Part shown: positions 30,347-56,584 of the stretch, piece by piece
How positions within the stretch are numbered: the first letter of the stretch is position 1
How the letters are laid out: every line of letters begins with the position of its first letter
Origin: Agaricus subrufescens
Lineage: Eukaryota; Basidiomycota; Agaricomycetes; Agaricales; Agaricaceae
DNA length: 64,000 nucleotides
NCBI GenBank assembly: GCA_029945375.1
Contig: CM057064.1
Span: forward strand, 2,294,001-2,358,000
Direction of reading: 5' to 3'
Program-made: the position numbers and the translations under genes
The notes under the pieces: generated by a model
Seen by the model: only the letters and a program-made list of their open reading frames with translations
What the model was told of the DNA's origin: nothing
Databases searched by the model: none

Positions 30347-30347
30347 T

Positions 30348-35716: not shown

Positions 35717-36061
35717 AGTGCTTGGAGGAAAAGGTTCAATGATTCACGAGGTCAACTTACTAGTTGATTATATTCTGTACTCCAGCACACCGCCGCCTCA
35801 CCCCTCGTAGCCCTTGTTGATGAGTAAATGATCACCTGATAACTTCCCCCGGAAGCCACGGGGAACGAGTGCCGGTACTTTTGCGATGACTGTACCGTGA
35901 TAGCATAAGTTGAATGAATGTCGTCATTCTGTTGCTGGGGGTCCTGTTTTCATTTAATCTCTGACTAACACAGGTGTCAGGAGATGACAGCTTGATGTAT
36001 GTTAGGAGGCTCTGAAGAATTTTGCACTGCTTCAGTCTCACAAGAGATTACCCTTCAATGT
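35717..36061. promoter_or_regulatory. Promoter region of BTB paralogue 3
   Basis: The stretch shares blocks with the upstream region of BTB paralogue 4 (for example the GATGAGTAAATGATCACCTG region resembles GATGAGCAGTAGCTTGAT near 56683). This shows that the promoter was duplicated with the gene. Its far end abuts the giant KDZ element. Confidence 0.45.
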
Positions 36062-36081
36062 ATTTTTGGGGCAGGGGACCG

Positions 36082-36147
36082 ATGTATACTGTACATAACA
36101 CATACAGCCCGCTGTATAAACTACATACAGCCACCAGTACATTTTAG
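36082..36147 (+). repeat. Left terminal inverted repeat of the giant element
   Basis: Begins ATGTATACTGTACATAACAC and pairs with the reverse complement of 55071-55136 (ATGCATACTGTACATAAGGC). By my count there are about 10 mismatches over 65 positions. It contains three CATACAGCC-like motifs that may be binding sites. Confidence 0.85.
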
Positions 36148-36289
36148 GCAACCTGTATAACTGCAGCAGTCATACAGTAGTTTACTTCTAGGGAGTAGGA
36201 TCTTACCACCATGGGATGTCAAACATGAGAGAATCCTAGTGAGATGAGAGAAACATGGATGGTAGGATTCTACTAGTGTACAGAAGGTG

Positions 36290-37341
36290 TGTGTAGTAGG
36301 ATTCAACTTATAGAGGATGACTGTGTGCAGTAAAATTCTACTATGGCAGAGTAAATGTGTGCAGTAGAATCCTACAGATGGAGAATATTTGTGTGTAGTA
36401 GAATTCTACTAATGGGGGATAGCTGTGTGCAGTAGAATTCTACTAAGAGTGGATAGCTGTATGCAGTAGAATTCTACTAAAAGGGGATAGCTGTGTGCAG
36501 TAGAATTCTACTAACAGGGGATAGCTGTGTGCAGTAGAATTCTACTAATCGGGGATAGCTGTGTATAGTAGAATTCTACTAATTGGGGATAGCTGTGTGC
36601 AGTAGAATTCTACTAATAGGGGATAGCTGTGTGCAGTAGAATTCTACTAATGAGGGATAGCTGTGTGCAGTAGAATTCTACTAATGAGGGATAGCAGTAG
36701 AATTTTACTAATGCAGTAGAATTCTACTAATAGGGGATAGCTGTGTGCAGTAGAATTCTACTAACAGGGGATAGCTGTGTGCAGTAGAATTCTACTAATC
36801 GGGGATAGCTGTGTACAGTAGAATTTTACTAATGGGGGTTAGCTGTGTGCAGTAGAAGTCTACTGATGGAGACTAATTGTGTGCAGTAGAATTCTACTGA
36901 TGGAGACTAATTGTGTGCAGTAGAATTCTACTGATGGAGAATAGCTGTGTGCAGTAGAATTCTACTAATGAGGGATAGCTGTGTGCAGTAGAATTCTACT
37001 AATGAGGGATAGCTGTGTGCGGTAGAATTCTACTAATGGGGGATAGCTGTGTGCAGTAGAATTCTACTAATGGGGGATAGCTGTGTGCAGTAGAATTCTA
37101 CTAATGGGGGATAGCTGTGTGAGTAGAATTCTACTGATGGAGACTAGCTGTGTGCAGTAGAATTCTACTGATGGAGAATAGCTGTGTGCAGTAGAATTCT
37201 ACTAATGGGGGATAGTTGTGTGTAGTAGAATTCTACTGATGGAGAATAACTGTGTGCAGTAGAATTCTACTAATGGGGGATACCTGTGTGCAGTAGAATT
37301 CTACTAATGGAGGATAACCATGTGCAGTAGAATTCTACTGA
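36290..37341 (+). repeat. Left subterminal array, about 30 units of 34 bp
   Basis: Each unit is built around the perfect 14-bp palindrome AGTAGAATTCTACT, followed by AATGGGGGATAGCTGTGTGC with small changes. Outer copies (36190-36290) are degenerate and tend to a GGATTC or GGATCT core; inner copies are nearly uniform. There is no protein-coding sense. The array is an inverted counterpart of the right array. Confidence 0.93.
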
Positions 37342-37414
37342 CATGGGAAATTTGTCAAACAATAATCTCATATTTTGTTATATGATATTGCACAACATCA
37401 GAATTCATTATTAT

Positions 37415-38766
37415 CTACAACAACTCCTCTACATTTAGACTGACTCCAAATTTCTCATAGTAAGCTTTGCTAATATGTCCTATAGCTTTCTTCATCATTA
37501 TCTTCTCAGCTGCTTCCTTCTCTCCTATAGATCCACTGAATAAATCTGTACTCTTGATACCCCAAAGTCTATCCAGATTTTGAATAATGAAAAGAGTGTT
37601 CCTTGGATTGAGGGGTTGTGAACCAAACCCCTCAGTTACTTTACTATCCTTGATAAAAGAAGAAATCTCCCAGCTTTTCCAGAGAGCAGCCCCTACAATA
37701 GCAGTTTCAATAGCACAACCACAAGAAAAATACCCCTCAACCTGTTTCCTAGGATTTTTTCTAGTCTTCATTATCCTAGGAACTGGAACACCATGAATCT
37801 GGATATCTGCCATAGACTGAGAACCATCAACATGTGATGTAACTCTGTCTTTCAAGTCATGGTGGATGCAGACAGTATTACCAGATTCATTAGTAAGCAT
37901 TTCCAAAGTAAGGGCCTGGGTAGTAGTGTATGCCTCTGGCAGAAATCCAGGATTTTTTCTAACTTGGTTCTTGAGAGAAGTTGGAATGTATGGTTTTTCA
38001 AAGACTTGAGCAGTAAGCCAACCAGTTAAGATTTCAATTCCTTCAGCTGTTTCGTATATGATTAATAAGTAAATATTAAATAGTATAGATTACTTACTGT
38101 GGCTGTGTTGCTTTGGCTCAGACTTGGCTTTTTTGTTAGGCCTCTTGGGTTTTTCCTTTTCTTTGCCTTTTTTCAATTCTACAATGCCATTATTAAAAAA
38201 ATTAACCAATAGGGCTTCAAAGAAATTACCTGGTATAGTCACTTCTGAACTTGAGGAGTCATAATCAGCTTGTCTTTTCAAATTTTTAAATACTGGAAAT
38301 AGTCAAAATAATGTCAAATTTGTTTGAACAATTTAAACTCACAGGATTCTTTGTTTTCAGGAGTCAAAAGTCTCATAGTTTCATCAGGACCATCAATTTC
38401 CACATATTTGGCAGTTCCAGTATATAGTTGATATTCATCATCATCCCCATCAGAGAAAAAACCAGAAATAGTTGGACCAGGTGGAGTGTTAAGAGGAGTA
38501 GTAGATTGGAGAGACTGAGTAGATACCAGAACAGGAGCCATAGAAGTTGAAGCAGTATTAAAGGTGGGTGATGCAATAGTGACAGGTATATCTTCTTCAA
38601 CTGGGGGGGTAGGGGAGTTATGCTGAGATTGGGTAAAAGCTGAAGTTGAGATCTCATCAGTCACAGCAGATACTGAGGCTGCATCAGTTGTAGCCTCATC
38701 TTCATACAGGCTTTTCAGGAGTTCTTGAATACTGTCCAAGCGCTTTTTCCTGTTTCCAATAGTCAT
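37415..38766 (-). CDS. Giant-element accessory protein 1 (unknown function)
   Basis: The ATG at 38766 starts MTIGNRKKRLDSIQELLKSL. A Ser/Thr-rich low-complexity region follows (38400-38700), then a short exon with a Lys-rich nuclear-localisation-like run (KKGKEKEKPKRPNKKAKSEP, about 38090-38280). After another intron (about 38050-38095) comes a more ordered C-terminal domain (VEGYFSCGCAIETAIVGAAL, LFIIQNLDRLWGIKST, ending VSLNVEELL). A candidate upstream exon near 38857-38942 (KEEEKTLLAIIKDQQNRLAL) and an ATG at 39024 could lengthen it with a coiled coil; I could not make that splice close cleanly. No known domain was recognised. A plausible role is DNA binding or regulation of transposition; this is inference. 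Confidence 0.65.
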
Positions 38767-39024
38767 AGTTATAGACTTTATGTGTTCTAAAGATAGTCAT
38801 TGTTTCAATAAATGTCTAGATAACCATAAAAATAGCACACTTTGACATTTAGGAGTTTTTTTCTTTGCCTGAGCAAGTGCCAAACGATTTTGTTGGTCTT
38901 TGATAATTGCAAGTAAAGTCTTTTCTTCTTCTTTCAATTGTAAAAAGGCTAACCATCACTGTCAGTAATCATGATTAGATATAATTATTTGATACTGACT
39001 GTATTGAGTAAGGTCTGAGGACAT

Positions 39025-41133
39025 GTTGAGTAGATATGACTTTTTTCAAGAGCAAGCAAAATAGCACTGAGGGGTCAGTTGAATTCTACTGAACAACAGG
39101 TATTTAAGCAATTTCATTATACCCTATTCAAGTGAACTATGGCATGGCATCAGTAGCTGCCCTTGGAAAATTAATCTAGCCAGAGAAGCAAGCTAGCAGT
39201 CCCGGGAATTTGGTATATAGAATTACAGCATGTCTACAGGATTGACAGCATGAATTGTGACATGCAGGGACAGTAGCATAAATGTGGCATAACTATTCTA
39301 CAGAAATCACATGTCTTAAATTAACATTTTAGGGTTTCATGATAACAAAATATTAAAATCAAGTATTCTATAATTTTGTGTAAGGAGTAGCTACCATATA
39401 CTGTATTTCTGAACTCAGAGTAAGACTGCCACAGTATAAGTATGTATATCACTGTTCACTGTTTATATATCATGCTCTGGGATAGTACAGCTTTGTGGGG
39501 TATAGTGGCCATGATTAGTGAGTGTCAAAATATCCAGACAAATGAATATGTACCATTACAGATTTTATTGCGGGATCAATGACATAGGATAATAGCATGG
39601 TGGCCGTGATAGCTGTGACCATGTATTCTGCCTGTGCATGGCTGCTGCATCTGACTTGTGCATGGACCATGTAGAGTGACGGTTGCAATAGCAGTAGTCT
39701 TGCCATGATCAGATACCCACTGATCATGGCACAACTTTATTATGTATCGTTATCATGATGAGCATTAGCGAGGTGTGAAAGTCAATGCAAATGAATACGT
39801 ACCATCAATGAACTCATAGCGGGATCTGTTTGACATTCTGCAGTGTTGATGTAGCAGGGTGTAATGGCCTTGATCAACAGCATAAACTAATGGATTCAGC
39901 CTGTGCATGGCCACAATCCTGGGTCTGACCTGCACATGGAATATGTATTGTGACAGCATAATGATGCCGTGCCGGCCATAGTCTTGCCATGATCCGATGT
40001 CCGCTGATTACAGAATGGCTTTGTTGTTTATTGTTATCAAAATGAGCATCAGCGAGGTGTGAAAGTCAAAATAAATGAATACTTACGGATTTCATAGCGG
40101 GATCTGTGTGACATTCTGCGGCGTCGATGTAGCGGGGTGTACTGGCCATGATCAACGGCAGAAGATAATGTATTCTACCTGCACATGACTGCAATCTTGC
40201 GTCTGACCTGCGCATGGCCGCAACTTTGCGTCTGACCTGCGCATGGATAATGTACAGCGATGGCATGACAATCCCATGCTATCGTGAGGGGTAGCTGACT
40301 GATCACGGCATGACGTTGTCGTGTACCGTTACCAAGATGAATGTCAGCTCGGCGCAAATGACAATACAGATACATACCATTACGGCGTTCATTGCGGGAT
40401 CCCTTTGAGGTTCTGCGGCGTCGATGCAGCATTAATGGCATAGGATGATAGCATGGTGGCCGCGATGGCCGTTATCATGTATCCTCGTGTGCGCATAGTC
40501 GCGATCTTGCGTCTGGCCAGCGCATGGATCGTGTACAGCGACGGCTTGACAATATTATAGCATTGCTAGTTGCGATCTGGCTGCGATGGCCGCGATAAAA
40601 GGGCTGGCGACGTGGTTGACTGTTTTGGTATAAGCTAGCCAGGGATATCAGTGATTGTCACGCTAGGTAACGATGTCCTCGAAGAATGTTCTATGACACA
40701 TTAATGTAGGTTTTGATTTGATTCGGTATGACGCCCATCTATAGACACAGAGTCAAGGATACAAAATGAGAGACGACATACTCGATACCCAGGTGAATAA
40801 TCATCATGTATCCTCGCGCGCGCATAGTCGCGATCTTGTGTCTGACCAGGGCATGGATCGCGTACAGGACGGCTTGACACATTCTGAGTTGCGATCTGGT
40901 TGCGATGGCCCTGATCAGAGGACAGGCGACGTGGTCAACTGTTTTGGGATAAGTTAGCCAGGGAAATTAGTGATCGTCACGCCAGGTAACGACATCCTTG
41001 AAGAATGTTCTATGACGATTTAATGTTCGATATGAATCAAATTTTATTGAGCGGGGCCCTATGGCATACCACCCGACTATAGAGACAGAGTCAAGGATAC
41101 AAAACGAGAGACAACTTACTCGATACTGTGCTG
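39025..41133. repeat. Satellite-like tandem repeat block, units about 270-340 bp
   Basis: About five diverged units follow one another from about 39520. Shared landmarks are GCGGGATC near the unit start, TCTGACCTGCGCATGG in the middle, and GAGGTGTGAAAGTC at the end in the first two. The last two units (about 40462-40790 and 40800-41130) are longer and share a 200-bp tail with GTCAAGGATACAAAA. Short frames on the minus strand repeat with the units, but they have no splicing logic or motif. The part before 39520 is AT-rich and unremarkable. Confidence 0.75.
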
Positions 41134-43930
41134 ATTAAGAGAGCAAGTCCATTTTGGTGGTCCTGGGCTTGTGGGTACCACTCAAAACGGTATGTATAAA
41201 CGTATTTTGTTCGCTTGACCTTCCATTCTGTCAAGCGAGATGAAAACTGTTCGTACAGTTGTCACCGTCTTAGTATAGTTAAAAGATTAAAATTCATACC
41301 GCTCATACCGCTCATATAGGTGTTGTTAGTCGTTCATAATTCTCGCCTTGAATTGAGATTAGCATTTGTCCTGTCGTTTCGCGCAAGCACACGCAGACCC
41401 TACCCTGAATGGCCAATAGAGTCTGGGACGCGGGACAGTCTGCTGGCAGGAAAATTGCTGCCGAATGCCGCAGCTAACCGTTTTGGGAAGTCAGCTGACA
41501 GACTTGATGGCGCGCCGGTAGTATCCGATAATCCGTTCAAGTTGTTTTTCGTGCATAGACTGGTGATAATTGGGTACTTTGAGCCTTCGAGTACCAGGCT
41601 GACGATGAGTTGCGGGTAGAGAAAGCTGCCAATAAAGTAAGTCATATGTTTTTGTTCATATCGCGTTGACTTGCCTGGCTTGGCACGCGGGACGCTGACA
41701 ACTGCGATAGGACCCTGCCCCGACCCTGCTTCGACTTAGCGACGATAGCAGCGCGATGAAAAGATATGTGGCGCTGCGATAGGACCCTGTCCCGATCCTG
41801 CTTCTACTTGGCGACGATGACAGCGCGATGAAACGTTATCAGTGGCGCCACCCGCAGCACATGAAATAAAAAGGATAATGCATGTTCGCATAGGCCTTTT
41901 CTTCGAATTTCACCCCCCTCCCCTCAGATTGTCTGCCGTTCTGTCCCCCTTCTTGTTGTCGTTTCGCCTGAGTACGGTCGAGTTGCGGTTAGGCGCCCCC
42001 GCAATGAGGCTTGGAAAAGACATGTCGACTTCGTAGATTGGGTGTGATTGGAACACCCTCGGCCACTTTGGCTGAGGTTCTTCAGCCTCTCCGACCGCTC
42101 ACAGACCCGCTCGACCCCTGTGTCAGTTGTGGTGTGAACTCGGAGATGTCCTCACCACGGGCTGCGTCAACGTGCGCTGATCGTGCCTCTCGCTTCGGTG
42201 GAGGGATCGTGGGGAGTCCGCAGAAGCGCTTACGATCTTTGAGCCATCTTGCTCTGCACCGTTTTTCCAAGGTCACACCATCAAGACGGGTGGTTGTTAT
42301 GAGCTCAGTGCGCTACGGTTTACTGTATCCCGCACTCCCTATTTGCTCTCTAACCCTTTGTAGCCTTTAGGTATCTTTGTTAGTCTCTCTGCGCTTTCAT
42401 TCATCCTGTGTCCCCTGTTTATGATGCTCGAGCCTCTCTGCGTTGTTTTTCCAAGGTCACAGCATCGCGATGCAGGTGCTTGTCAGGAACTCGGTGCGCT
42501 ATAGTTTACTGTATCCCCTTCTTATCTGCTCTCTAACTGCTCGTAGCCTTTAGGGTTAGGCTCTGTGCGCTTTCGTTTTTCCTATCTTTTGTCCCCGCTT
42601 TATGACGCTCAAGCCTCTGCACTGTTTTTCCAAAGTCACAATTTCACGATGAAGGTGCTTGTCAGGAACTCGGTGCGCCGTCGTTCATTTTATCCCGCAC
42701 TCTCTATTCGCAGCTCTCTAACCCGCTCATAACCTTTAGGTGTCTCTCAAGTAGCTTGTCTACGCTTTGATCTATTCTATCCCTTGCCCCTGCTTGATCG
42801 TTCAGGGATTCACTGTCACCGTCTTATCTGTACAGTATCCCCTTTTTTCATGTAAGTATTGATCCCTTTGTTTGTCCATCTTCGTTTGATTCTGATCAGT
42901 GTCATGCACCTAGTCTCGTAGTGCACGCATGGTCCTCTTCACGACGTGACGTCGCTCTAGCCCATTCTATATTCTGCGTGTCATGTAAGTATTCATCCTT
43001 TTGATTGGCTGTGTTGATCTGACTGCAGTTTAAAGATCAAACACATTTCGTGTGACCCAACTTCATGCCCGTCGTTGATGCTAATCTTCTTCAACGTCTT
43101 GAGGTTGGTCTCCACCCTTGGTCCCATCAGCTTACTCATTAGACTTAACAGGCATTACTCTGTATGCACTTGGCTTTGATTTCACCCTCATCTGTATTTA
43201 TATTCTATTGTTGGCACTATTCGCTGTAAGTCCTGCCTCTTGTATGATGTGATGAGTGATGCTCATACCTTCATTTCTCTCTGAAAGCCTGTCTTCCACT
43301 GCCTTCAATGTGTTGAAGCCACAGAATCTAGATATCAGGTACTTGTGTATTTTTCTTTTGGCCTATGTTGACTATGCTTGTAGGTGAGCCTGCTCCTCTG
43401 CAAGACTATTTTTTTTGTCCGAAGCTACTGTTCTATTGTAAGTATTTGTACCCCGTAGAGTTATTATCTTATACTCACTATTGCTAATTAGTCATTTGCA
43501 TATTAGCTATAGTTGTACTATGATGTTATACTTTTAGTTTAGTCTTCTTATTCATAGTTATATGACCTGAGACAGGAGGGCCCGCCTGTTTCATGCCATC
43601 TAACTTTTTAGTATAGTTTTTTGACTTTGAATTCTTAATAATGTATCAAAGCATATCTATTATCATGGATAGAGGGGGAAACCCTGTCATTTTGATTTTA
43701 TAAGGGGAAACTCTGTCAGTCTGATTTTATAAGGGGAAACTTTGTTAGTTTGATTTTATGAGGAGAAACTGTGTCAGTTTAATTTTCTAAGGGAGAACTT
43801 TGTTAGTTTAATTATCTGAGGACCCAGGTAATCCAAACATGTTTGCTCATGTGATTTTTTAATCAAACCTGACCATATATAAGATGAAAATTTTCTGACC
43901 ACCCATCATTCTTTCTTGCCTCTGCCCTCC
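41134..43930. other. Long non-coding part of the giant element with several minisatellites
   Basis: No coding gene is seen. It holds a 72-bp direct duplication (about 41701-41772 and 41775-41846, with GCGATAGGACCCTG), a triple repeat of about 182 bp (about 42243-42770, each copy with TTTTTCCAAGGTCACA), and four to five units of about 36 bp at 43672-43825 (GGGGAAACTCTGTCAG). Four consensus GTAAGT donors (42852, 42983, 43226, 43440) suggest that a spliced untranslated leader of the following gene may run through it. Confidence 0.55.
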
Positions 43931-46795
43931 ATGTCTGAAATGTCCTCTGTTATTGCACAAGGCCCTGTTCATACCTCCTCTACACCTCAGAGGCCCTCTG
44001 TCCCTCCTGCTCCTACTCCTGCTCCTGCCTCTGCTATCATTCCTGCCCCTGTTCACTCTTCTAGGGCTAGGGGAAACTTGGCCAGGAACCAAACTTTTAC
44101 CAACTCCTTGGCCAGTGCTATTGATGGCCAACAGGCTGCTGCCACTCATAACAATAAAGGTAAAGGTAAGGGCAGAGGTCGCAAACTGTGTCACAAGTCT
44201 AGTAAGTAATTTCTCATATCATAATTCTCTATTTTTACCAGTATGATAGAGGGTAGAATGGAACAACAAGAAAGTGTTAGTGAAGTTGGTGAGTATTTCA
44301 TAATAGCAAGTATAGCTTATCCTGATATTCTTATAAGAACCTGGTACTACTAGTACCACTACTACCCCAGTTCAAGATAGTAAGTATGATTTCTATTTGT
44401 TGTATAACATCTTCTTATAATATTATTAGCTCCTGTTAGTGGTCTGGTTTCTAGTGGTACTACTAGTACCATTACTACTGAAGTTCAAGATGGTAAATAT
44501 GATTTCTATTTGTTGTATAACATCTTCTTATAATATTATAAGCTTCTGTTAGTGATCAAGTTTCTGGTGGTACTACTAGTACCACTACTACTCAAGTTCA
44601 AGATAGTAAGTAAAAGTTTCATTTTTGTGTAACACTTTCTTATAGTATTATAAGCTCTTGTTAGTGGCCAGGTTTCTGGTGGTACTACTAGTACCACTAC
44701 TACTCAAGTTCAAGATGGTAAGTAAAAGTTTCATTCTTGTGTAACACTTTCTTATACTTCTATTAGCATCTAGTGGTGGTCAAGGTTCTGGTGGAAGGGT
44801 AATCAGTAAGTTCAAATCTATATAACATATTCTTATACTTATATTTTTGTAAGGGCGTTCTGCTATTCCCAATCTTCCTCCTAAACTTCTTAATCGTCGT
44901 GGTCAGTTCAAGTGGGATGCTACAGTTAGGGTTGAGTGGAAGAAAGCTGTAAAAGAGAAGGAGTATGATGTTAGAGATAAGGGCTTGAAGAAGAAATCAT
45001 ATGGGGCTAGAAAACGTAGGTTGCATCATAGGGCTGGTGTTAGCTATGTGGCAGGTGGTGAAGCTAGCAAGTCTTCTCTTGCTGATCTTGGTTTGGGAGG
45101 GGATGATGACTTGATGGACATTGATAGTTCAGAGCATGAAGATGATGTAAATGAGTAACTTTGTTGAATATTAGCATTCTTTTCTGATGGTCTGCTAGGA
45201 AATTGATGAGTCTCAAGCCAGTTCTGTGATTATTATTTCCATGTTCAATTTCTATCTGTCTAATGATTTCTTAGTGGTGTTCATGTTGTCTCAATGGAGG
45301 AGACTTATATCTCTGCCAATGTCACCGTGCTGTTTGTTACAAATGCCTTGGTAACATTGCAACACAGCCTAATCTTGGCAAGTTTACCTGTCCATATTGT
45401 TGGAAAGAGAATGATACAAAAATGGGAACAGTCACTCCCTATGTTGTCAGTACACACAGAACTATTACTTTGAAATTGATCTAACTATAATTTTAGCCTT
45501 TTAAAAACTCTGCTGAAGTAGTATTCATAAAGTCCTCTCTAGTTTCTAGAAGTAGACTGCCAGAAATATGTCCTGGTACCCTTTGTTTGATAAGCTTTGT
45601 GCTCAAAGGTTTTGACACAGAGTCTACTGTGGCATCCCTCATCTATCTCCATCTCAAACATTATTTTCTCAATACCTCTACTAGCAAAGTTCAACATTTT
45701 ATTGTTGAATTTGATGATGACACAGATAAAAAAGGACAGTTAATTCATTGGAAGAATATGAAAAAGCTTCTTCCAGATTTTGAACAGTGAGTAGATTTAT
45801 TCCTAGTATAAATCTAACTCTAATTAAAACTAGATTTGATCGTTTTTTGATTTTCATAACCACTCATTCAACACCTGATGGTGACCTCTGGGTCAAAGGC
45901 ACAGGAAGAGATGAAAATGAAGACCGATCTGCTTTTGATATTGAAAATGTGAAGTATAATCTAATTCAAAGTAAAATTCTGATATACTAATAATTTGTCC
46001 CAGTTTTTCACTTTTCTCTTTCCCAAGAGATTCATTGAAATCATAAAAACTGATCTTAGAGCTAGTCTCTTTCTTTTGTGCTGTGAAGGTCCTTTTGTAC
46101 AAAGGGAGCTTCTTGCACGTATTCACAGTTTTACAAAGGAGTGAGTATTTTTTAATCTGTTATTCTCCTGTCTAACTTTGATTTTGAAGCAAATTTTGGC
46201 TTACAACTGCCTTTGTCAAAAAAGACTTTCATCCAACATCTGTTCACACATTTTTGATGAATTTTGTGACCACAGTTTATATCAACCAAAAGCCATCAGT
46301 CTTCCCCAATCTTTTAGAAGCACAATATGAATTAGGTGCAAGTATTGATGGAATTATGATGTCTAGGAGGGGTGACAATGGGTTTTGCTTATTACGTTGG
46401 GTTAATGCCCTTTATAGCCCTTGTGGTGCTCCTGCTCCAACTTGTTGTCCTAATTGTGGAGCATTTTTACCCTGGTCTGTCAAGGAGGTTTTCCCTGCTC
46501 AAAATCCTTCAGAAAAGATACCAGGTATACATAAAGGTATATTCAATATTGTTAGTCATCTATGTCTGTACTCAAATATTTTACAGATCTGCAACCAATG
46601 TCTTTATATTGCAAAAATCCAAGTTGTGCTTTGACACTTCATCGGAAACATCCCTCATCATCTTTTTTGGTTACAAATAGTTATCCTCCACCTCATACAA
46701 TTGCTGGCAGGGTCTGGGGATATTGGGTTGGATGTTGGATGGAGTCTTCTGATACAGATCAAACTTTTAATTTATCTTTTGATGATGTTATATAA
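43931..46795 (+). CDS. PHD-like zinc-finger protein of the giant element, with duplicated mini-exons
   Basis: The ATG at 43931 opens a Pro/Ala-rich exon ending in a basic NNKGKGKGRGRKLC. At 44330-44760 comes a run of small exons, each coding one GTTSTTTTQVQD unit. At 44855 follows a basic exon (FKWDATVRVEWKKAVKEKEY, KKKSYGARKRRLHHRAG) with an acidic end. Next, at about 45278-45415, comes a PHD-like finger: WCSCCLNGGDLYLCQCHRAV, then CYKCLGN and FTCPYCW. Later exons contain IYLHLKHYFLNTSTSKVQHF and a second Cys cluster near 46430-46460 (CGAPAPTCCPNCGAFLPW) and 46600-46630. It ends with the TAA after SFDDVI, 90 bp from the convergent transposase gene. A chromatin or DNA-binding partner of the transposase is likely, but the function is unknown. 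Confidence 0.7.
44330..44765 (+). repeat. Tandem mini-exon plus intron array
   Basis: A unit of about 110-115 bp, one 63-nt exon and one intron of about 50 nt, is repeated four times (the first exon is shortened). Every exon begins and ends in phase 1, so any number can be added or skipped without changing the frame. Introns are also alike (GTAAGTATGATTTCTATTTG in the first, GTAAGTAAAAGTTTCATT in the last two). Exon products differ only slightly. Confidence 0.85.
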
Positions 46796-46884
46796 CTAAT
46801 TTCTACTCTGTGGTACTCTCAATTCAAAGTGTTCAAGGTTTTGTCAACTATTAAATGATAGATACATATAAACCAATCAAAGTA

Positions 46885-49800
46885 CTATTTTACCATTTTT
46901 TGAATTTTACTGCGGTTCCATAATGAAAGAAAAACACTAGTATATAATATGGCCCTTTCCTGCCCCATATATCTGATAGACTTTCTAATTTTTGCCAGTC
47001 CACCATTTCCACACTCAGCTGCACTAGAGTTAACCCTAGCTAATAAAGGTTGACTTTCAGCATATGTAGACATGAAAAAGGCCTTGCTACATCTGCTATG
47101 ACCTTGTGAATGAAAATTATCAATGAGAAAAACTGTATCAGAGAAAAACTCTGGTTCCCTGGTCCTACAATATGGACCAAGTTGACAAGCAAAATCATAA
47201 ATAACATATTTTGGAGCTTTAGGCCATCTAGTGACCATAGCTGAGAAAACATCATTTCTTCCTTCACTTGAAGGAATGCAATGATATCCATAGCATATAC
47301 TATGTGGACACCATGCACACATAAGCCCACCTGTTAGTTGGTTTTGACCATATTCATGGTAGTATTTGTTACACTGCCCTCCTCTTTTCTTAGGTTCCTT
47401 GATATTTTCATACCTGAGTCCAGGATATGTAGGCCTATGTCTGATCTGGGGCATACTATATTTTGTTCCACTCTAAAAATAGTCTTAGTATATTGATTTA
47501 TTGAACAGGTATTTGATATCTACCTTTTTCCACCCACCATCAGCATGGGGTGCTGCTGGGTCACAAGCTGGGCTTTCATATGTAATCATTTGCTTTGTAA
47601 CATCTTCTGTTTTCTTGATTAATTGTGTACAAAGTGCCAATGTTGATAAATCCCAGAAAGGTAAATTAGCTTGTTGTTCCATTTTCAATAGCCAATATAG
47701 ACATGGAATGCAAGCAAGATAATTCAGTGTAGTTGGTGATGGAGATGCCACAAATGCTTTGAGTTGCTGTAGTGCAGGTCTGTTGATGACTTGAAGAATA
47801 GAATCTGGGCTACTAATCTAATCTTTTTTAAGTCTAGTATCAAACAATTATATATGCAACTTACTTGTTTAAAAAATGCTATAACCTCAGTGGGGCATTT
47901 TTTCTTGAGTAATAAAGCTGATGGAGAGCAGTATTTCTCAAAAAAAGAATGCAGAATTGGTTCTTGTATTTCAAGCATTTCTTGTAATAGAGGTATTTGC
48001 TTGATTCTAGCCATCATATCTTGTGTCTGTTTGGTTTGGTCTTGTATATCTTCATCATCTGTAGACTCTTCCTCCCATTCTTTTGATTTTCCTTTTGAAG
48101 TAGTGACTGATCCACTATTGAGTGGTCCAGAAAAGATGTTTGCCATTAGTTTCCGGATTTCTGGTGATGAAATAACAGTTTGATGGCGGTAGTAAGAACA
48201 GCTTCTGATGGTAGAGTTTTGGTGGATAGTGGTTGGGGGGTAAAGTGATGAATGTAGATGTTTCTGGTTGAAACCCACAGTAACACCATCCCATATGACT
48301 GTTTCTGGAGCTATTCCACATTCAGGACATTGAAAGTCATTTTCAAGAGTAAGTAGGCCAGCATAGCTAAACCAGGCTGCTCTGAAAATCTTTTCATCCA
48401 CAAAAGGAGAATCAGAGTGGTATCTCTGATATCTAATTGATACCGTCTTGATCCAGGCAGTGAATGGAGTTTCAGAAGATATATATGCTGCAGTATACTC
48501 TTCTAAGAGATCATGGGTGAACAAGGCATGGTTATTGAGATTGAATATTCCCAAATCACTGCAGTCAGGGCCAATGGCTTTGTATCGGGATGATTGACAA
48601 TGTGTGCAATGTTGCAGTTGAATTTGGGTGTGGATTGACTTGGTAAGAGTATAGATAATGCAAGGTTTGGTGTAAATGTCATGGTTTTGCTGGAATTGCT
48701 GTCCACAAGAACACTGAGATGATGGAGATAATAAAAGAGGTCCATCAAAGGCTAGAACTGGTGGAACAATCTTGTAAATCTTATCTGTAGAAATTCTTGC
48801 CCAGGTTGGTGGGGGTAATGAGATATAGGATACAGAATGCATAATCTTGATATTAGGCATAGAAATTGAAACTATAAGTATTATTAGCTTTGAGTTTTTA
48901 TAACATAATTAAGTTTACCTGATAATCCATGATTCATATCTAGTGCCAAGTTTTCAGAAGATTCTCCCAGGTATTTCTTGACAGTTTTAATATGAGGGCA
49001 GAAAGGATTATTTGTTCCATCTTTGGAACATTGCCATAAACCAGAGTGGATGTCAGAGCCAACTAATGTGATTACTGCTCTAGCTTTCACAAGTGAAGGA
49101 AGTTGACTAGAACCAACAGAGAACAGAGTTGTGTGCTCTGCATCAATCAACTCCTTAGAAAAAATTGAAACAAGATCAAGCTTTTCTATAGTAAAATAGT
49201 TAGACAATAAGAATATTAATAAGACTATCATTTACCTGGGCTGTTTTCAAATATGCCTTCACCATATTCTTTTAAAAACCTTTGATGAACACATTTGAAA
49301 TTTGTTGTTGCTGCAGTGCAGTAACAAACAGGTTCTGAAGTTGATGATGCTCTATCAATTTGTAAATGATGCCATTTGCCCTGTGTTAATTGTATTAGTT
49401 AACTGGATTTTATAAATTAGCTGCAGTATAAATCTTACTGTAGATGATCCATTTTTTGTATCCCATCCTTGTATTACAAACACATCCTTACTTATAGGAT
49501 AAAATGGCATTGCATTGACAAGCACAGCTTCAACAAATTCATGATAAAAGTCTGTTGCCAAAGATATGGAAGAATGGTCTAAAAATGGATTCAAAAATCC
49601 ACTTGAAGTGGCTTCTGAAATTTCAGTGGACCCTTCACCTTCACCAGTAGTTAGGAAAGGGCCACTATTCAATGAATCAGAAAAAAAAGTATCTGGTGAA
49701 GAAAATTCAAAAGGGATAGAGTTTATAGCTGGAACAGGATCTTTGATAAACAATGCTTGTTTAGATCTTGTTGAATGTCCTGTTTTTTGTTTTTTTTGAG

Positions 49801-49948
49801 GTGTAAAAGATAAAGATAAATCTGGAGATTTATCAAAGTTATCAAGAGTTAAAGTAGGTGGAGAGTTGGGTGGTGTATCCAATGTTATTTGGATAGGATT
49901 GGGAGGGTTTTTGTTGTGACACTTTTGTGATTGGCCTTTTTTAGACAT
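46885..49948 (-). CDS. KDZ-type transposase with cysteine clusters
   Basis: ATG at 49948 (MSKKGQSQKCHNK). A Ser/Pro-rich N-terminus is followed by a SWIM-like cluster CYCTAATTNFKCVHQRFLKE (about 49270-49335), a second cluster WQCSKDGTNNPFCPHIKTVK (about 48965-49035), and a third, CxC-type, with CSCGQQF and CTHCQ (about 48590-48720) plus ECPECG-like DFQCPECGIAPETVIWDGVT. The catalytic part near the C-terminus has PHSICYGYHCIPSSEGRNDV, YDFACQLGPYC (about 47180), IDNFHSQGHSRCSKAFF (about 47077-47125) and SSAAECGNGGLAKIRKS (about 46985-47035). These supply the expected D, D/H and E positions. This composition is that of Kyakuja-Dileera-Zisupton transposases with associated CxC clusters. About eight short introns. 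It is head-to-head with accessory protein 2. Confidence 0.75.
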
Positions 49949-50252
49949 TGAGATAAAGGAATAAAGAGAGGGGTGAGGAACAATAGTCACTTAGAGTTTA
50001 ATATATATGTAGACAGTGAAAATTGATTGCTATATTTAGCAAGTTTTATTAATTAATCTAAACAAACACAAATAGTTGCCCCAAAATTTGCTGAGTCTAA
50101 ATCTAATATTAGAAATAAATTGTATAGAAAGTTCTAGAATCAAATAAACAATAGTCAACAATTTCCCCAATATCAAAAATTTTGATCCAAGAATATATAA
50201 GAGTCTAGTATTACTAGTATTTTAATCATCCCTGCATTTTAGCCATCCTCTG
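49949..50252. promoter_or_regulatory. Divergent promoter between transposase and accessory protein 2
   Basis: About 305 bp of strongly AT-rich DNA separate the two start codons, with TTTAATATATATGTAG near 49998. A shared promoter is inferred from the layout. Confidence 0.45.
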
Positions 50253-51550
50253 ATGCATTCCCCCCGTACTCCACGTACTCGTCGTCCCACTCAAAAACTC
50301 TTGGATAGTGGCAATGCTATTCAAAAGAAGAAAAGACAGCCTGCTAAATGCCATATTTGCCCAGGTTTTCCTCTTAAAGCTATTTGTAGCTGTAGAAAAC
50401 AGCAACAACAAACAGCTTCTTCCTCAAGTATTTCAAATACCTTATTTACAAGTACAGATCTTTTTTCTCACAGTATTTTTTTAGATTCTTTTGCAACTCC
50501 AGCCATTTCTCAGACTTTTTCTATAAACATAAATTCTCCTGAAATTAACTCACCCACAGTGTTACTTCCACATTCATCTCCTACACCCAACAATAATTTT
50601 GTATCTACACCAATACCTTTATTCAATTTTCCAGATACCTTGGGTACTCCAGAAAATTCATCAAATGGAGAAGTTGTAAGTTCAATTTTTCTTATAAAAT
50701 ACTAATGTAACTTAAACTTTAGAATGACTCTCAGATCAACAATATGATGTCAAACTCATCTGATCTTATGGTAAGTTTCTATTTTACAAAAATTGATAAG
50801 AACTAATATATATAGATTGATCCACAACTGCTTGATCAAGATAATCAGGATCTAGATCCTGAAATTGGCACTTCTGAAAATGTCCAAGAATTATCACCTA
50901 AAAAAAATGCAAAAACTGTCCCTTCAGTGAGGAATCCAATTTATGGCTTGGTAGAGGGAGTCAAGAAAGGAAGTGCAGTTTATGGTATGTTTCAATTATA
51001 AAATGCTTTTCTGTTGAATTTTAACAAAGATAAGATGTTGCAAGAACTCGTGAACTTCCTGGTAAAATCAATATGCTAGGAAAGTCAACCTCTAGATATA
51101 GAAGAGAACTACCAGACATCATTGCAAGGGCAAGTAAACTATTATTTTTAAATCTGTGATTGACTTTATTCATATTATTGCCAGTGTGAACGGTTGGCTG
51201 TACAGTGTGATGTCTACATGATGTTAGTGTGTCAGCAAGCCAGTGGCTCTTCAGCTGCTGTGCACTATACCTCTCCTAGGCTCAGAAAAGAAGCCAAGCA
51301 AGACACTGTGGAAATTATTCAAAACTATCAATCTTTGATGAACAAATTATTGTTGTCTCGGAGACAAGATGCATTAGTTGCTATCAAAGAGAAAGAAATA
51401 GCTGAAAAAGAAGCACAAGAAGCACAAGAGAGAACCAGACAGGCAGAAGAAAGAATAAAGGCACAAGAGACACAATTGGAGGCCCAAAGTATTTTGCTAC
51501 AAAAATTACAAGCTCAAATGGAGGAATTGCAAGCACAAAGAAAAGAGTAA
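50253..51550 (+). CDS. Giant-element accessory protein 2 (Cys-rich start, coiled-coil end)
   Basis: The ATG at 50253 starts with a basic region (MHSPRTPRTRRPTQKLLDSG) and a Cys/His patch CHICPGFPLKAICSCRK. A Ser/Asn/Pro-rich, probably disordered stretch follows, then several very small exons (NDSQINNMMSNSSDLM; then a segment ending in YGLVEGVKKGSAVY). The last exon (51194-51550) forms a long coiled coil of heptad-like Glu, Lys, Gln and Ala (AIKEKEIAEKEAQEAQERTR). Introns are about 40-60 nt. No family was recognised. The basic start and coiled coil suggest a dimeric DNA-binding protein; it is a candidate for binding the neighbouring 34-bp array, by inference only. Confidence 0.65.
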
Positions 51551-51659
51551 AGTAGACAAAGAATATGAGACTGTAAATAGTTATTTGATGTTAATTTCTG
51601 AGATAAAAGATACTTGAACTATTCAACTGCTTTTAACATGATTGATAGAAATTTTCCCA

Positions 51660-54600
51660 ATGTAGTAGGATTCTACTGCTTATATTATAGTAGAATCCAA
51701 CTGGCCACAATGTATGCACTGTGGTAGAATTCCACTTCCTATGATTTTCCTCTTCACTACTATTTCGCTACTCCAGTAAAATTCTACTATTCATAAGTGT
51801 AGCTCTGCAAAAGGATCCCACTGATCAAAACTTTCCCAATGCAATAGAATTCTGCTGCACACAATAGCCTGACTGTAGTACAATTGTACTGCCCACAATA
51901 TCCATACTACAATAGAATTCTACTGACCTCAATTTTTGCACTGCAGGAGAATACTACTATGAACAATGTCCCTAGTGCAGCAGAATTCTACTATCCACAA
52001 TGTCTCCACTGCAGTAGAATTCTACTGCTCACAATATCCCCACTGCAGTAGAATTCTAATGCTCACAATATCCTTGCTGCAGTAGAATTCTACTGCTCAC
52101 AATATCTCTGCTAGAGTAGAACTCTACTGCTCATAATATCTCTGCTGCAGTAGAATTCTACTGCTCACAATATCCCTGCTGCAGTAGAATTCTACTGTCA
52201 ACAATTTACCCACTGCAGTAGAATTCTACTGCTCACAATATACCTGCTGCAGTAGAACTGCTCTACTGCTCACAATATACCTGCTGCAGTAGAATTCTAC
52301 TACCCACAATATCCCCACTGTAGTAGAATTCTACCACCCACAATATACCCATTGCAATAGATTTCTACTGTTCACAATATCCCCACTGCAGTAGAATTCT
52401 ACTGCTCACAATATCCCTGCTGCAGTAGAATTCTACTGTCAACAATTTACCCACTGCAGTAGAATTCTACTGCTCACAATATCCCTGCTGCAGTAGAATT
52501 CTACTGCTCACAATATCCCCACTACAGTAGAATTCTACTGCTCACAGTATCCCTGCTGCAGTAGAATTCCTGCTGCTCACAATATCCTGCTGCAGTAGAA
52601 TTCTACTGCTCACAATATCCCCGCTGCAGTAGAATTTCTGTAGGAATTCTACACAATATCCCCACTGTAGTAGAATTCTACCACCACAATATACCCATTG
52701 CAATAGATTTCTACTGTTCACAATATCCCCACTGCAGTAGAATTCTACTGCTCACAATATCCCTGCTGCAGTAGAATTCTACTGCCTACAATATCTCCAC
52801 TGTAGTAGAATTCTACCACTCACAATATACCCATTGCAGTAGAATTCTACTGTTCACAATATCCCCACTGCTGTAGAATTCTACTGCTCACAATATCCCA
52901 CTGCAGTAGAATTCTACTGCTCACAATATCCCCACTGCAGTAAAATTCTACTGCTCACAATATCCCAACTGCAGTAGAATTCTACTGCTCACAATATCCC
53001 CACTACAGTAGAATTCTACTGCTCACAGTATCCCTGCTGCAGTAGAATTCTACTGCTCACAGTATCCCTGCTGCAGTAGAATTCTACTGCTCACAATATC
53101 CCTGCTGCAGTAGAATTCTACTGCTCACAATATGTAGTAGAATTCTACCACCCACAATATACCCATTGCAATAGATTTCTACTGTTCACAATATCCCCAC
53201 TGCAGTAGAATTCTACTGCTCACAATATCCCTGCTGCAGTAGAATTCTACTGCCTACAATATCTCCACTGTAGTAGAATTCTACCACTCACAATATACCC
53301 ATTGCAGTAGAATTCTACTGTTCACAATATCCCCACTGCTGTAGAATTCTACTGCTCACAATATCCCCACTGCAGTAGAATTCTACTGCTCACAATATCA
53401 CAATATCCCCACTGCAGAATTCTACTGCTCACAATATCCCCACTACAGTAGAATTCTACTGCTCACAGTATCCCTGCTGCAGTAGAATTCTACTGCTCAC
53501 AGTATCCCTGCTGCAGTAGAATTCTACTGCTCACAATATCCCCACTGCAGTAGAATTCTAGTGCTCACAATATCCTTGCTGCAGTAGAATTCTACTGCCT
53601 AAAATATCTCCACTGTAGTAGAATTCTACCACTCACAATATCCCCACTGCAGTAGAATTCTACTGCCTAAAATATCTCCACTGTAGTAGAATTCTACTGC
53701 TCACAATATCCCCACTGCAGTAGAATTCTACTGCTTACAATATCCCTGCTGCAGTAGAATTCTACTGCTCACAATTTACCTGCTGCAGTAGAATTTTACT
53801 GTTCACAATATCCCCACTGCAGTAGAATTCTACTGCTCACAATATCCCCACTACAGTAGAATTCTACTGCTCACAATATCCCCACTGCAGTAGAATTCTA
53901 GTGCTCACAATATCCTTGCTGCAGTAGAATTCTACTGCCTAAAATATCTCCACTGTAGTAGAATTCTACTGCTCACAATATCCCCACTGCAGTAGAATTC
54001 TACTGCTTACAATATCCCCACTGCAGTAGAATTCTACTGCTTACAATATCCCTGCTGCAGTAGAATTCTACTGCTCACAATTTACCTGCTGCAGTAGAAT
54101 TTTACTGTTCACAATATCCCCACTGCAGTAGAATTCTACTGCTCACAATATCCCCACTGCAGTAGAATTCTACTGCTCACAATATCCCCACTGCAGTAGA
54201 ATTCTACTGCTCATGATATCCCTGCTGCAGTAGAATTCTACTGCTCATAATATCCCAGCTGCAGTAGAATTCTACTGCTCACAATATCTCTGCTGGAGTA
54301 GAACTCTACTGCTCATAATATCTCTGCTGCAGTAAAATTCTACTGCTCACAATATCCCTGCTGCAGTAGAATTCTACTGCTCACAATATCCCAACTGCAG
54401 TAGAATTCTACTCCTCACAGTATCCCCCACTGCAGTAGAATTCTACTGCTCACAATATCCCAACTGCAGTAGAATTCTACTGCTCACAATTTACCTACTG
54501 CAGTAGAATTCTACTGCCTAAAATATCTCCACTGTAGTAGAATTCTACCACTCACAATATCCCCAGTGCCATAGAATTCTACTGCTCACAATATCCCCAC

Positions 54601-54935
54601 TGCAGTAGAAATCTACTGCTTACAATATCCCTGCTGCAGTAGAATTCTACTGCTCACAATTTACCTGCTGCAGTAGAATTCTACTGTTCACAATATCCCC
54701 ACTACAGTAGAATTCTACTGCTCACAATATCCCCACTGCAGTAGAATTCTACTGCTCACAATATCCCCACTGCAGTAGAACTCTACTGCTCACAATATTC
54801 CCACTGCAATAGAATTCTACTGCTCACAATATCCCTGCTACATTAGAATTCTACTGCACGCAATATTCCTACTACAGTAGAAACCTACTGCTCCCAATAC
54901 CCCCAGTGCAGTAGGATCCTATCCCTCAGTTAGAT
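51660..54935 (-). repeat. Right subterminal array, about 90-95 units of 34 bp
   Basis: The typical unit is GCAGTAGAATTCTACTGCTC followed by ACAATATCCCCACT. Read in reverse complement it gives the palindrome, then GCAGTGGGGATATTGTGA, recognisably the left unit (GGGGGATAGCTGTGTG). The arrays are therefore inverted relative to each other. Higher-order blocks recur, such as the group with TTCTACCACCCACAATATAC and AATAGATTTCTACTG near 52320, 52680 and 53140. The outermost copies (54905-55025) drift to a GGATCC core. Confidence 0.93.
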
Positions 54936-55070
54936 ATCATGTCAGTAGGATCTTACCAGGCTTGATATCCAGAAGTCAATAGGATCCTATTAGAAACAAT
55001 GTGCAGCCTGAATGGTAGGATCCTACTCTGGGATGTATAGCTGTGATAGTCAGAGCCTTATATAATACTC

Positions 55071-55136
55071 CAAAAATGTACAAGGGGCTGTATGTAGGTT
55101 GTACAGCCGGCTGTATGCCTTATGTACAGTATGCAT
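55071..55136 (-). repeat. Right terminal inverted repeat of the giant element
   Basis: Reverse complement begins ATGCATACTGTACATAAGGC and matches the left repeat at 36082-36147. About 40 nt further out, the direct repeat ATTTTTGGGGC (55177-55187) follows. Confidence 0.85.
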
Positions 55137-55187
55137 AAATCAGCTACGTGGTATTTTTTGTTAAATTTTACAGTGGATTTTTGGGGC

Positions 55188-55381: not shown

Positions 55382-56584
55382 CTACGGTAACATGAAACGA
55401 CTAGCTAAGCTGGCATCGAAGTCACGCTGGGCAACCTCGATCGTTAATTTAACCACTGAGTAGCAAGGAATTTTGGATGAAGAGTCCTGCCCGATAGATT
55501 TTTGTGCTTTCTTTGAAATATGCTCAATCAGCTTGCCGGGGTCGCCAACTCCCACTGCATCACCTGTCGCACTTTTCCACCATGATTCCCACCCTTTTAT
55601 ACAATCTTTGTGCTTTTTACATGATGGATTGTCCGCTAGCTTGGGAGGTGCTGATAACTTGACTCGAAGCCGCGATAACGACCAGAATCCAGTGAGTAGG
55701 CGTATTCGCCTCTCACTATTCAAAGTCGGTAAGGATTCATCGAGATGTGATCCAGCTTGGTCCAAGTGGATCGGAGTACTGTTCTGCGTCTGGCCAGTGA
55801 AAGCACCGCCCGATTGGAGATACACATAATAACATTTGGCGTGAAATTTCCGAAAACGATCTGAGCCTTCCACTGCATCTAGAGCCCCTTCGAAAGCGCC
55901 GGTACGCGTGATGGGATCCGAAATTTGCTTGAGCCAAGTTTGTTCCAACCGAACAACTAGAGACGTTTTGCCACATTCAGCGGCGAGCTTGAAGATCCTG
56001 CTGATAGTATGCCATGTGCCGCATCGGAGGAAGAATTGGTCAGGCTGTGCAACATAGCAGCTATCGATGGCATTTAAAGCCCATTCAAGATAGGCAATAA
56101 AGTCGTATTTATGGGCTATTGCCACCACGCAAATAAGCCTTGGGATGTCGATGGTGGTCCAACTTTGTTGTGCGAGGACATCGGCGGGGCTATTTTATGC
56201 AATTTAGTGGAATGATGAACATATTACAGGAAAGAAACGACCTAGAGTATACCACCCAACATAGAGCACGAAAATCCTCAGCGGATTCGGGACAGATGAT
56301 AGGATTCTTGTCAGAGTTACCCTCAAGAGAGTTCTGGTCGCCACTCTGAGGAAGAGACAGGAGCGATTGGAAGAATGGGGAATAACGCGAGAATAACGCT
56401 CGGTGTATCTGAGGAACAAAGCTCTCAGAACGCATCGAATTGTGAGCTGAAGAATTTTCACCTTGAAGAGACTACCTTCAGCGAGAACAACAATACTCCC
56501 ATCTTCAAAGTAGTAATTGGTGTCGCAAACATATGCTGAACGAGCTATTAGAGTGTCTTCAGATAATTCCTCAATGGGGACCAT
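55382..56584 (-). CDS. BTB/POZ domain protein, paralogue 4
   Basis: ATG at 56584 (MVPIEELSEDTLIARSAYVC); an in-frame longer start at 56620 is possible. The BTB motif is complete: NYYFEDGSIVVLAEGSLFK, then after an intron HRALFSRYSPFFQSLLSLPQ and DFRALCWVVYS. The third exon from about 56150 contains IPRLICVVAIAHKYDFIAY, CYYVYLQSGGAFTGQ, LLTGFWSLSRLRVKLSAPPK and ends SLASRFMLP. It is most like paralogue 3 (WESWWK, SLSRLRV, DFD(A/T)SLASRFM), so the two were probably adjacent before the giant element separated them. It is intact. Confidence 0.8.

Follow-up and report, generated by a model that had tools for sequence, protein, structure and literature searches.

The subject of this analysis is a 64,000-nucleotide stretch of the Agaricus subrufescens genome (assembly GCA_029945375.1, contig CM057064.1, forward-strand positions 2,294,001 to 2,358,000), called the window below, and in particular a large DNA transposon that lies within it. 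The window belongs to contig 8 of the 44.65-Mb assembly, whose 44 contigs were searched for relatives of the element. The transposon spans 36068-55150 (19,083 bp) and is flanked on both sides by a direct 8-bp target duplication, GTATTTTT. The original prediction had placed the limits at 36073 and 55176, with outer direct repeats; those limits are replaced here, and the outer repeat is ruled out as a boundary by the 8-bp duplication, which lies further in. The element has GGGG..CGTG termini, and the inverted repeats that had been predicted at 65 bp are present and measure 67 bp. Between them are two arrays of a 34-bp unit in opposite orientation and four genes in the order A(-), B(+), T(-), D(+) (Table 1). 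The gene models were spliced by hand and are open throughout. Three intron-rich genes had been proposed in addition to the transposase gene T; A and D are complete open models, and B could be modelled for its last 525 codons only.

Table 1. Features of the element, in window positions
Feature	Position	Strand	Remarks
Left target site duplication GTATTTTT	36060..36067		8 bp
Left terminus GGGGCAGGGGAC	36068..36079	+	11/11 family left ends identical
Left terminal inverted repeat	36082..36148	+	67 bp, 85% to right copy
Left array, 34-bp unit with palindrome AGTAGAATTCTACT	36288..37339	+	TRF: 30.6 copies
Gene A, 467 aa, 5 exons	37415..39024	-	exons 39024-39000, 38948-38841, 38786-38343, 38292-38098, 38046-37415
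Stretch without gene model, G+C higher in part	39100..43660		41300-42400 matched family copies only
Gene B, C-terminal 525 aa modelled	43932..46796	+	exons from 44853; start by eye
Gene T, KDZ transposase, about 935 aa, 6 exons	46888..49948	-	exons 49948-49439, 49380-49236, 49185-48919, 48871-47865, 47817-47524, 47472-46888
Gene D, 366 aa, 5 exons	50253..51550	+	exons 50253-50675, 50723-50770, 50816-50984, 51035-51129, 51185-51550
Right array, mirrored 34-bp unit	51835..54921	-	TRF: 90.6 copies
Right terminal inverted repeat	55070..55136	-	67 bp, 85% to left copy
Right terminus CAGCTACGTG	55141..55150	+	12/13 family right ends; remaining one is CAGCTACATG
Right target site duplication GTATTTTT	55151..55158		8 bp

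The element is a DNA transposon of the KDZ superfamily, as had been predicted from its transposase. The CxC4 domain of T is recognized with an E value of 3.7e-43 (146.9 bits, cut-off 26.9), and the KDZ domain scores 20.4-24.4 bits, under the curated cut-off of 26.6. T has 134 homologues, and Pfam CxC4 is annotated on all 120 of those listed; the named ones come mainly from Agaricomycetes, with the best match in Agaricus bisporus (52%). Across 16 sequences D834 and E894 are invariant and D502 nearly so, and these three residues presumably form the D-D-E catalytic triad.

The two arrays, as measured with Tandem Repeats Finder (TRF), agree closely with the predicted numbers of about 30 and about 90 copies, and they account for 21.7% (4.1 kb) of the element, in keeping with the earlier estimate of a fifth. 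Each unit contains a 14-bp palindrome with the skeleton AGTA-N6-TACT. Exact skeleton sites number 29 on the left and 66 on the right, with none between the arrays, and when up to four mismatches are allowed the counts rise to 33 and 94 (about 127 in all). The core palindrome is identical in both arrays. The consensus spacers are alike when one of them is inverted (score 19 versus a mean of 11.2, reached by 0.9% of 1000 shuffles) and not alike in the same orientation (score 6, reached by 81% of shuffles), so that the likeness of the spacers is seen only in the mirrored arrangement. Each array lies just beyond the 3' end of a gene, A on the left and D on the right. The exact 14-mer AGTAGAATTCTACT occurs 79 times within the element and is absent from the 45 kb of window sequence around it. 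Genome-wide it occurs 738 times (reversed control, 0), and all 50 listed positions of the 738 fall within copies of the same element family.

Second copies of the element do exist, as the original prediction required. At least 11 left ends and at least 13 right ends of the window family were found, and such copy counts are lower bounds because the genome searches score the best candidates only; the left-end set comprises the 11 with near full-length matches. Of the 38 genome matches to the catalytic exon of T, 12 belong to the family, one of them as a partial match, and the other 26, at 70-76%, to diverged elements. Around the transposase, the copy C6:27957 matches 3,585 bp of the window at 100% identity, a second group of eight copies is 97.8-98.2% identical, and one C5 copy is 92.7% identical. 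The two groups differ more elsewhere, with identity falling to 87% in the left 200 bp and to 69-83% in 41300-42400, and on these alignments the family looks mosaic. A search with 41300-42400 gave 27 matches (69-100%), all in family copies by their coordinates and none outside the family. In the C5 copy and in group 1 the left array contains 33 or 34 sites; group 2 has 41-44, and these counts may be low because some arrays reach the edge of the stretch examined. The core is the same in the left arrays of both groups and the spacers are different; the right array of the C5 copy has a period of 35.

The target duplications and the many copies bear out the proposal that this is a KDZ transposon and that its subterminal sites are amplified, and the element family is mobile. 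The 8-bp duplications agree in four of eight same-contig, same-strand family pairs, and also in a C8 pair. The copies C6:27957, C1:992848 and C3:3494062 each lie between identical 8-mers (GGGGGTCC, AAAGGACT and CAGAACGC, respectively). The duplication of the C8 pair, GGTCAGGA, is common to the right end C8:1403127(+) and the left end C8:1414666(-), which are 11 kb apart on opposite strands, a layout expected from an inversion or a misjoin. In addition, the left duplication of C6:3161735 equals the right one of a C36 copy (GAGGTAAT), and both of these copies head into contig ends.

It had been anticipated that arrays in unrelated contexts, without the four genes, would speak against the proposal. 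No such context came up; arrays without the four genes were found in two short derivatives of 3.4 and 3.9 kb, which retain the same inverted repeats as well as arrays at both ends. Their skeleton sites number 9 + 3 and 12 + 18, their consensus units are mirrored, and their duplications agree at 7/8 and 8/8 positions. None of the searched exons of A, B, D and T has a match in either derivative (285 bp of one was not covered). The retention of the arrays in these derivatives points to a role in cis in movement.

Elements of other lineages share the general plan. A 111-bp query from one diverged right end gave 27 matches; in seven elements, each about 13-15 kb long, the matches form an inverted pair. 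Two diverged left ends start with GGGGCAGGGGAC and GGGGCAAGGGAC, the latter differing by one change, and both of the diverged elements read at both ends have 8-bp duplications identical on the left and right (GTATAACC and CGTACTTG). The transposase side of 13 diverged elements was examined over at least 1.5 kb each, and seven of the 13 have at least 19 skeleton sites; eight loci (seven elements) have 19-49 sites per locus, compared to 0.06-0.28 in shuffled sequence (0.02-0.28 over all shuffles). The sites of these elements differ in their six-base middles: CAGTTG at C1:1031446 (37 sites), CAATTG/TAATTA at C5:1565901 (31 + 12), CATCCG at C9:1147106 (30 + 1), CGGCGG at C3:168763 (35 + 23) and a mixture at C5:1625731 (19); C5:2461730 and C6:339056 have 46 and 49 sites, respectively. 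TRF, which is independent of the motif, was applied to 16 diverged loci and detected arrays with a period of 33-34 or multiples thereof in 11 of them (nine elements). The skeleton AGTA-N6-TACT is present in 10 of these 11 loci, and the eleventh is off by one base.

The comparison of consensus 34-mers, from which 133-bp higher-order arrays were left out, separates the parts of the unit. Between the window and four diverged lineages the half-sites agree at 8/8 bases, the middle at 0-50%, and the spacer at 15-25%, where random 20-mers give 30%. In the diverged arrays, 228 neighbor spacings measure 60 bp or less. Of these, 192 are 33 or 34 bp long and seven are 23 or 24 bp, one helical turn shorter; six of the seven are in two left arrays. 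The terminal 80-95 bp of diverged lineages align at 77-83% even where the adjoining arrays cannot be aligned, as with C5:1565901 versus C9:1147106 or C5:1625731; the window end had no match among the diverged ends in this end-alignment comparison. Thus, the site grammar is kept across lineages, with AGTA-N6-TACT every 33-35 bp and a private middle and spacer.

A grammar that is constant over lineages is what a fixed host factor would require, and the palindrome might accordingly be the site of a host DNA-binding protein recruited for expression, replication or nuclear position. However, the middle and spacer vary by lineage, and the listed positions of two array words keep to the elements or their vicinity: besides the 50 listed positions of AGTAGAATTCTACT, another palindrome, AGTACAATTGTACT, has 45 genome sites (reversed control, 2), and each of the 45 is either inside an element or no more than about 1.2 kb away from a match to gene A. 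Nor do any host sites stand out in the 45 kb of the window outside the element, because the looser AGTA-N6-TACT occurs there only once. A host protein is therefore a highly improbable explanation. Each element lineage has its own type of site, and the array words, to the extent that they are listed, do not leave the elements; for these reasons a binder encoded by the element is likelier than one from the host.

The genes, too, can be traced through the diverged elements. The family accounts for 13 matches of gene A (91-100%) and 13 of gene D; beyond it there are 37 A matches at 28-36%, some of them fragments, and 26 D matches at 26-37%. A D match lies within 6 kb of 25 of the 26 diverged T matches and an A match within 13 kb of 24 of them; C2:988245 has neither an A nor a D match near T, and at C1:5866647 the A match is 24 kb off. 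Gene B, in contrast, has 12 genome matches, every one in the window family. Because A and D accompany most diverged T matches and B is found only in the window family, the core cassette consists of A, T and D, with B added in this family alone. The order in the diverged elements is A(-) D(-) T(+) or the reverse. Both A and D are core genes that evolve fast. By eye, the N-terminus of D is basic and contains Cys residues and its C-terminus is coiled-coil-like. Four tandem 113-bp repeats (44342-44794) lie in the 5' part of B and, by eye, seem to span exon as well as intron sequence.

Based on these data, and with moderate confidence, the element can be read as a mobile KDZ transposon in which each end consists of an inverted repeat, probably held by the transposase, and a mirrored palindrome array that probably serves as a platform on which dimers of a fast-evolving, element-encoded protein dock at many sites. 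The fixed length of the palindrome, the invariant half-sites, the changing middle and the fixed register are the traces expected of a dimeric protein with cooperative neighbors. The AGTA/TACT half-sites would be the protein contacts, and the fixed spacing would place adjacent dimers at a constant angle. Once both arrays were coated, the element's own ends could be marked and drawn together and cutting by the transposase helped, in the manner of TNPA on CACTA elements. Renewal of the arrays by unequal exchange would let each lineage drift to a private site, with its protein following. D is the first candidate for the binder because of the character of its two termini, followed by A and then by the CxC4 half of T.

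Several observations count against this reading, and some of them concern the arrays. Six of the 13 diverged elements have no more than 10 sites in the stretch examined: 10 at C2:1090599, 9 at C1:1763164, 5 at C9:1212584, 4 at C6:956097, and zero in the 1.5 kb examined at both C2:988245 and C2:476528. Within the window family, the right end C5:3141852 has only four skeleton sites, and the TRF array of the diverged locus L075 reads AGTT instead of AGTA. The four diverged lineages share 40-90% of the spacer with one another, and the closer ones align through the array as well (67-75% or 81-86%). The lineages are thus not independent draws, because related ones share array ancestry. The half-sites appear more conserved within an array when units are chosen by the site itself, a selection that favors them; when units are chosen by the spacer, this excess is not borne out (permutation p 0.08-0.90). 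Finally, the duplications mismatch in four of the eight same-contig pairs (C5, C4 and two on C10). Some of these match crosswise, with C4-left equal to C10:1440-right (TCTGTTCA) and C4-right equal to C10:704-left (AGATTCAA), which suggests either a misjoined assembly or exchange among near-identical copies.

Alternatively, the arrays could be functionless satellite DNA, grown by slippage inside the transposon and with half-sites inherited from a common ancestral array. The partial likeness of the diverged spacers, the diverged elements with few or zero sites and the outcome of choosing units by spacer all fit such an origin, as do the variation in left site number among copies (33-34 versus 41-44 or more) and the presence of the 133-bp higher-order repeats. 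Passive growth is nevertheless improbable. The period and all eight half-site bases are shared by the window and the four lineages; elsewhere in the unit agreement is near or below chance, except in the middle, where it reaches up to 50%. In two diverged elements the spacing is 23/33 on the left and 33/34 on the right, and the skeleton is kept in both arrays. Furthermore, the short derivatives have retained both of their arrays.

The other points that count against a docking platform concern the protein. Pfam searches revealed no significant family in A, B or D, and no known DNA-binding domain scored as significant in A or D. A search of solved structures found nothing significant for A (best E 0.067) and zero relatives for D, the homologue search for D scored 0 of 2992 candidates, and the fold prediction for A is poor (predicted local distance difference test, pLDDT, 38.6). 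The N-terminal/CxC4 part of T is itself only 40% identical to that of one diverged lineage; because this half of T also diverges fast, divergence singles out neither A nor D. The original proposal of a binding platform for an element protein is favored by the conserved site grammar, with D, A and the CxC4 half of T as candidate binders.

The main rival is that the arrays are chiefly targets of an element-encoded anti-silencing protein that protects the element from methylation or heterochromatin, like the VANC proteins of VANDAL elements in Arabidopsis, with end pairing secondary. The targets of VANC are likewise tandem short non-coding motifs that differ between related families, and co-evolution has been proposed in the parts of those reports used here (PMC5735166, PMC10398659). 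Genes for TET/JBP dioxygenases are described, in the portion of the source available, on other fungal KDZ elements (PMC12730594). The one homologue of A, from Agaricus bisporus (45%), is a record in which A is joined to an N-terminal part that is TET-like (E 7e-9 to CcTet); the joining could reflect a fusion, or two adjacent transposon genes run together. Part of gene B (within 44853-46796) is PHD-finger-like, with E 1.2e-4 to the CHD4 PHD finger among solved structures, and would be a histone- or chromatin-reader type of domain carried by the transposon. This rival is taken seriously but is judged rather unlikely. The short derivatives, where the searches detected no gene, still retain arrays. 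The position of the arrays is beyond the 3' ends of A and D and away from promoters, and an artificial gene fusion may explain the TET-like part of the Agaricus record. The Tet_JBP model matched only three places in the genome, none in the elements (the nearest T match is 73 kb away and the nearest A match about 63 kb), and no TET relative of A, B or D was found among solved structures. A diverged TET could be missed, because the model also scores the Agaricus TET-like domain below the cut-off.

The docking reading can be extended, tentatively, to a fungal KDZ clade with a rewritable code. Tens to about 120 end palindromes would be homogenized to a private six-base middle under the AGTA-N6-TACT grammar, with a distance between neighbors of 33-35 bp or one helical turn less. 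A co-evolving element protein would coat the arrays as a phased filament, pair the ends and shut out related transposases. This extension is possible, and is offered with less confidence than the docking platform itself.

A few other features were noted. A long interspersed nuclear element (LINE)-type retrotransposon at 28604-34769, directly to the left of the element, has a 580-amino-acid open reading frame (ORF) without a Pfam match and a 1473-amino-acid ORF with endonuclease and reverse transcriptase; among the flanking genes that the original prediction took for BTB paralogues, the ORF examined (55385-56128) has no Pfam match. In one diverged element, an F-box-like ORF (L084:7000-8163; Pfam E 2.2e-4, just under the cut-off) lies between the transposase and the right end, and is perhaps captured cargo. 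A segment of at least 73 kb is present three times (C2:3846077-3919119, C7:2161959-2235543 and C14:90492-164112), and because the TET/JBP, transposase and gene D scores are identical at all three places, this suggests a segmental triplication or redundant contigs.

Among described fungal KDZ elements, those of Cryptococcus are active, and KDZ1-3 resemble the present element in having a KDZ transposase with a Zn-chelating CxC domain and long inverted repeats (PMC12810828). According to the parts of the published accounts drawn on here, the target duplications are 8 bp for KDZ1 and 4-8 bp for KDZ2/3 (PMC12810828), and 8 bp for Dileera of Puccinia (PMC12730594). Unlike the present element, the KDZ elements in these accounts are about 9.2-11 kb with inverted repeats of 139-241 bp, and palindrome arrays are not mentioned in the text available. 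The Kyakuja elements of Agaricomycetes (two Laccaria families) are described there with 7-bp duplications, CA..TG termini and no inverted repeats (PMC12730594), and the element differs from them in its 8-bp duplications, its GGGG..CGTG termini and its 67-bp inverted repeats. The TET-carrying KDZ elements of Agaricomycetes belong to the same superfamily, and the Agaricus relative of A shares a protein record with a TET-like domain; the elements here have no Tet_JBP match, with a model that is weak on the Agaricus domain too. Among the titles and opening lines of abstracts that searches of the open-licence literature listed for KDZ/Zisupton elements with subterminal or tandem repeats, none mentions such arrays, and none has KDZ end recognition as its topic.

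The closest working analogue of the arrays is probably the CACTA system with TNPA. In CACTA/En-Spm elements, as here, the transposase and terminal repeats are conserved and the subterminal repeats diverge; there the repeats are bound by a separate protein, TNPA, which also diverges (PMC2613891, in the part available). The soybean element Tgmt*, described in the same source, has 4 left and 24 right subterminal repeats that are asymmetric and able to form palindromes. The present element belongs to a different transposase superfamily and has neither CACTA-type termini nor 2-3 bp duplications, and it has about 33 and 94 sites in a 34-bp register over 4.1 kb.

VANDAL elements are Mutator-type elements of plants. 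Their VANC targets resemble the arrays in consisting of a short tandem motif that is family-specific (here, lineage-specific), with an element-encoded binder proposed to co-evolve (PMC5735166, PMC10398659). In contrast to the palindromes described here, the motifs in the published text available are not palindromic; for VANC, anti-silencing has been measured. Plant CACTA elements already show subterminal repeats that diverge beside a conserved transposase and conserved termini, and fast-changing tandem-repeat targets are known from VANDAL elements. If the docking reading is true, a clade of fungal KDZ elements would follow the same logic (about 127 sites here, 28 in one CACTA element), which could be a general way for a transposon to tell its own ends from those of its relatives. 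Diverged lineages with distinct arrays lie side by side in this one genome, which makes the co-evolution of site and protein directly testable.

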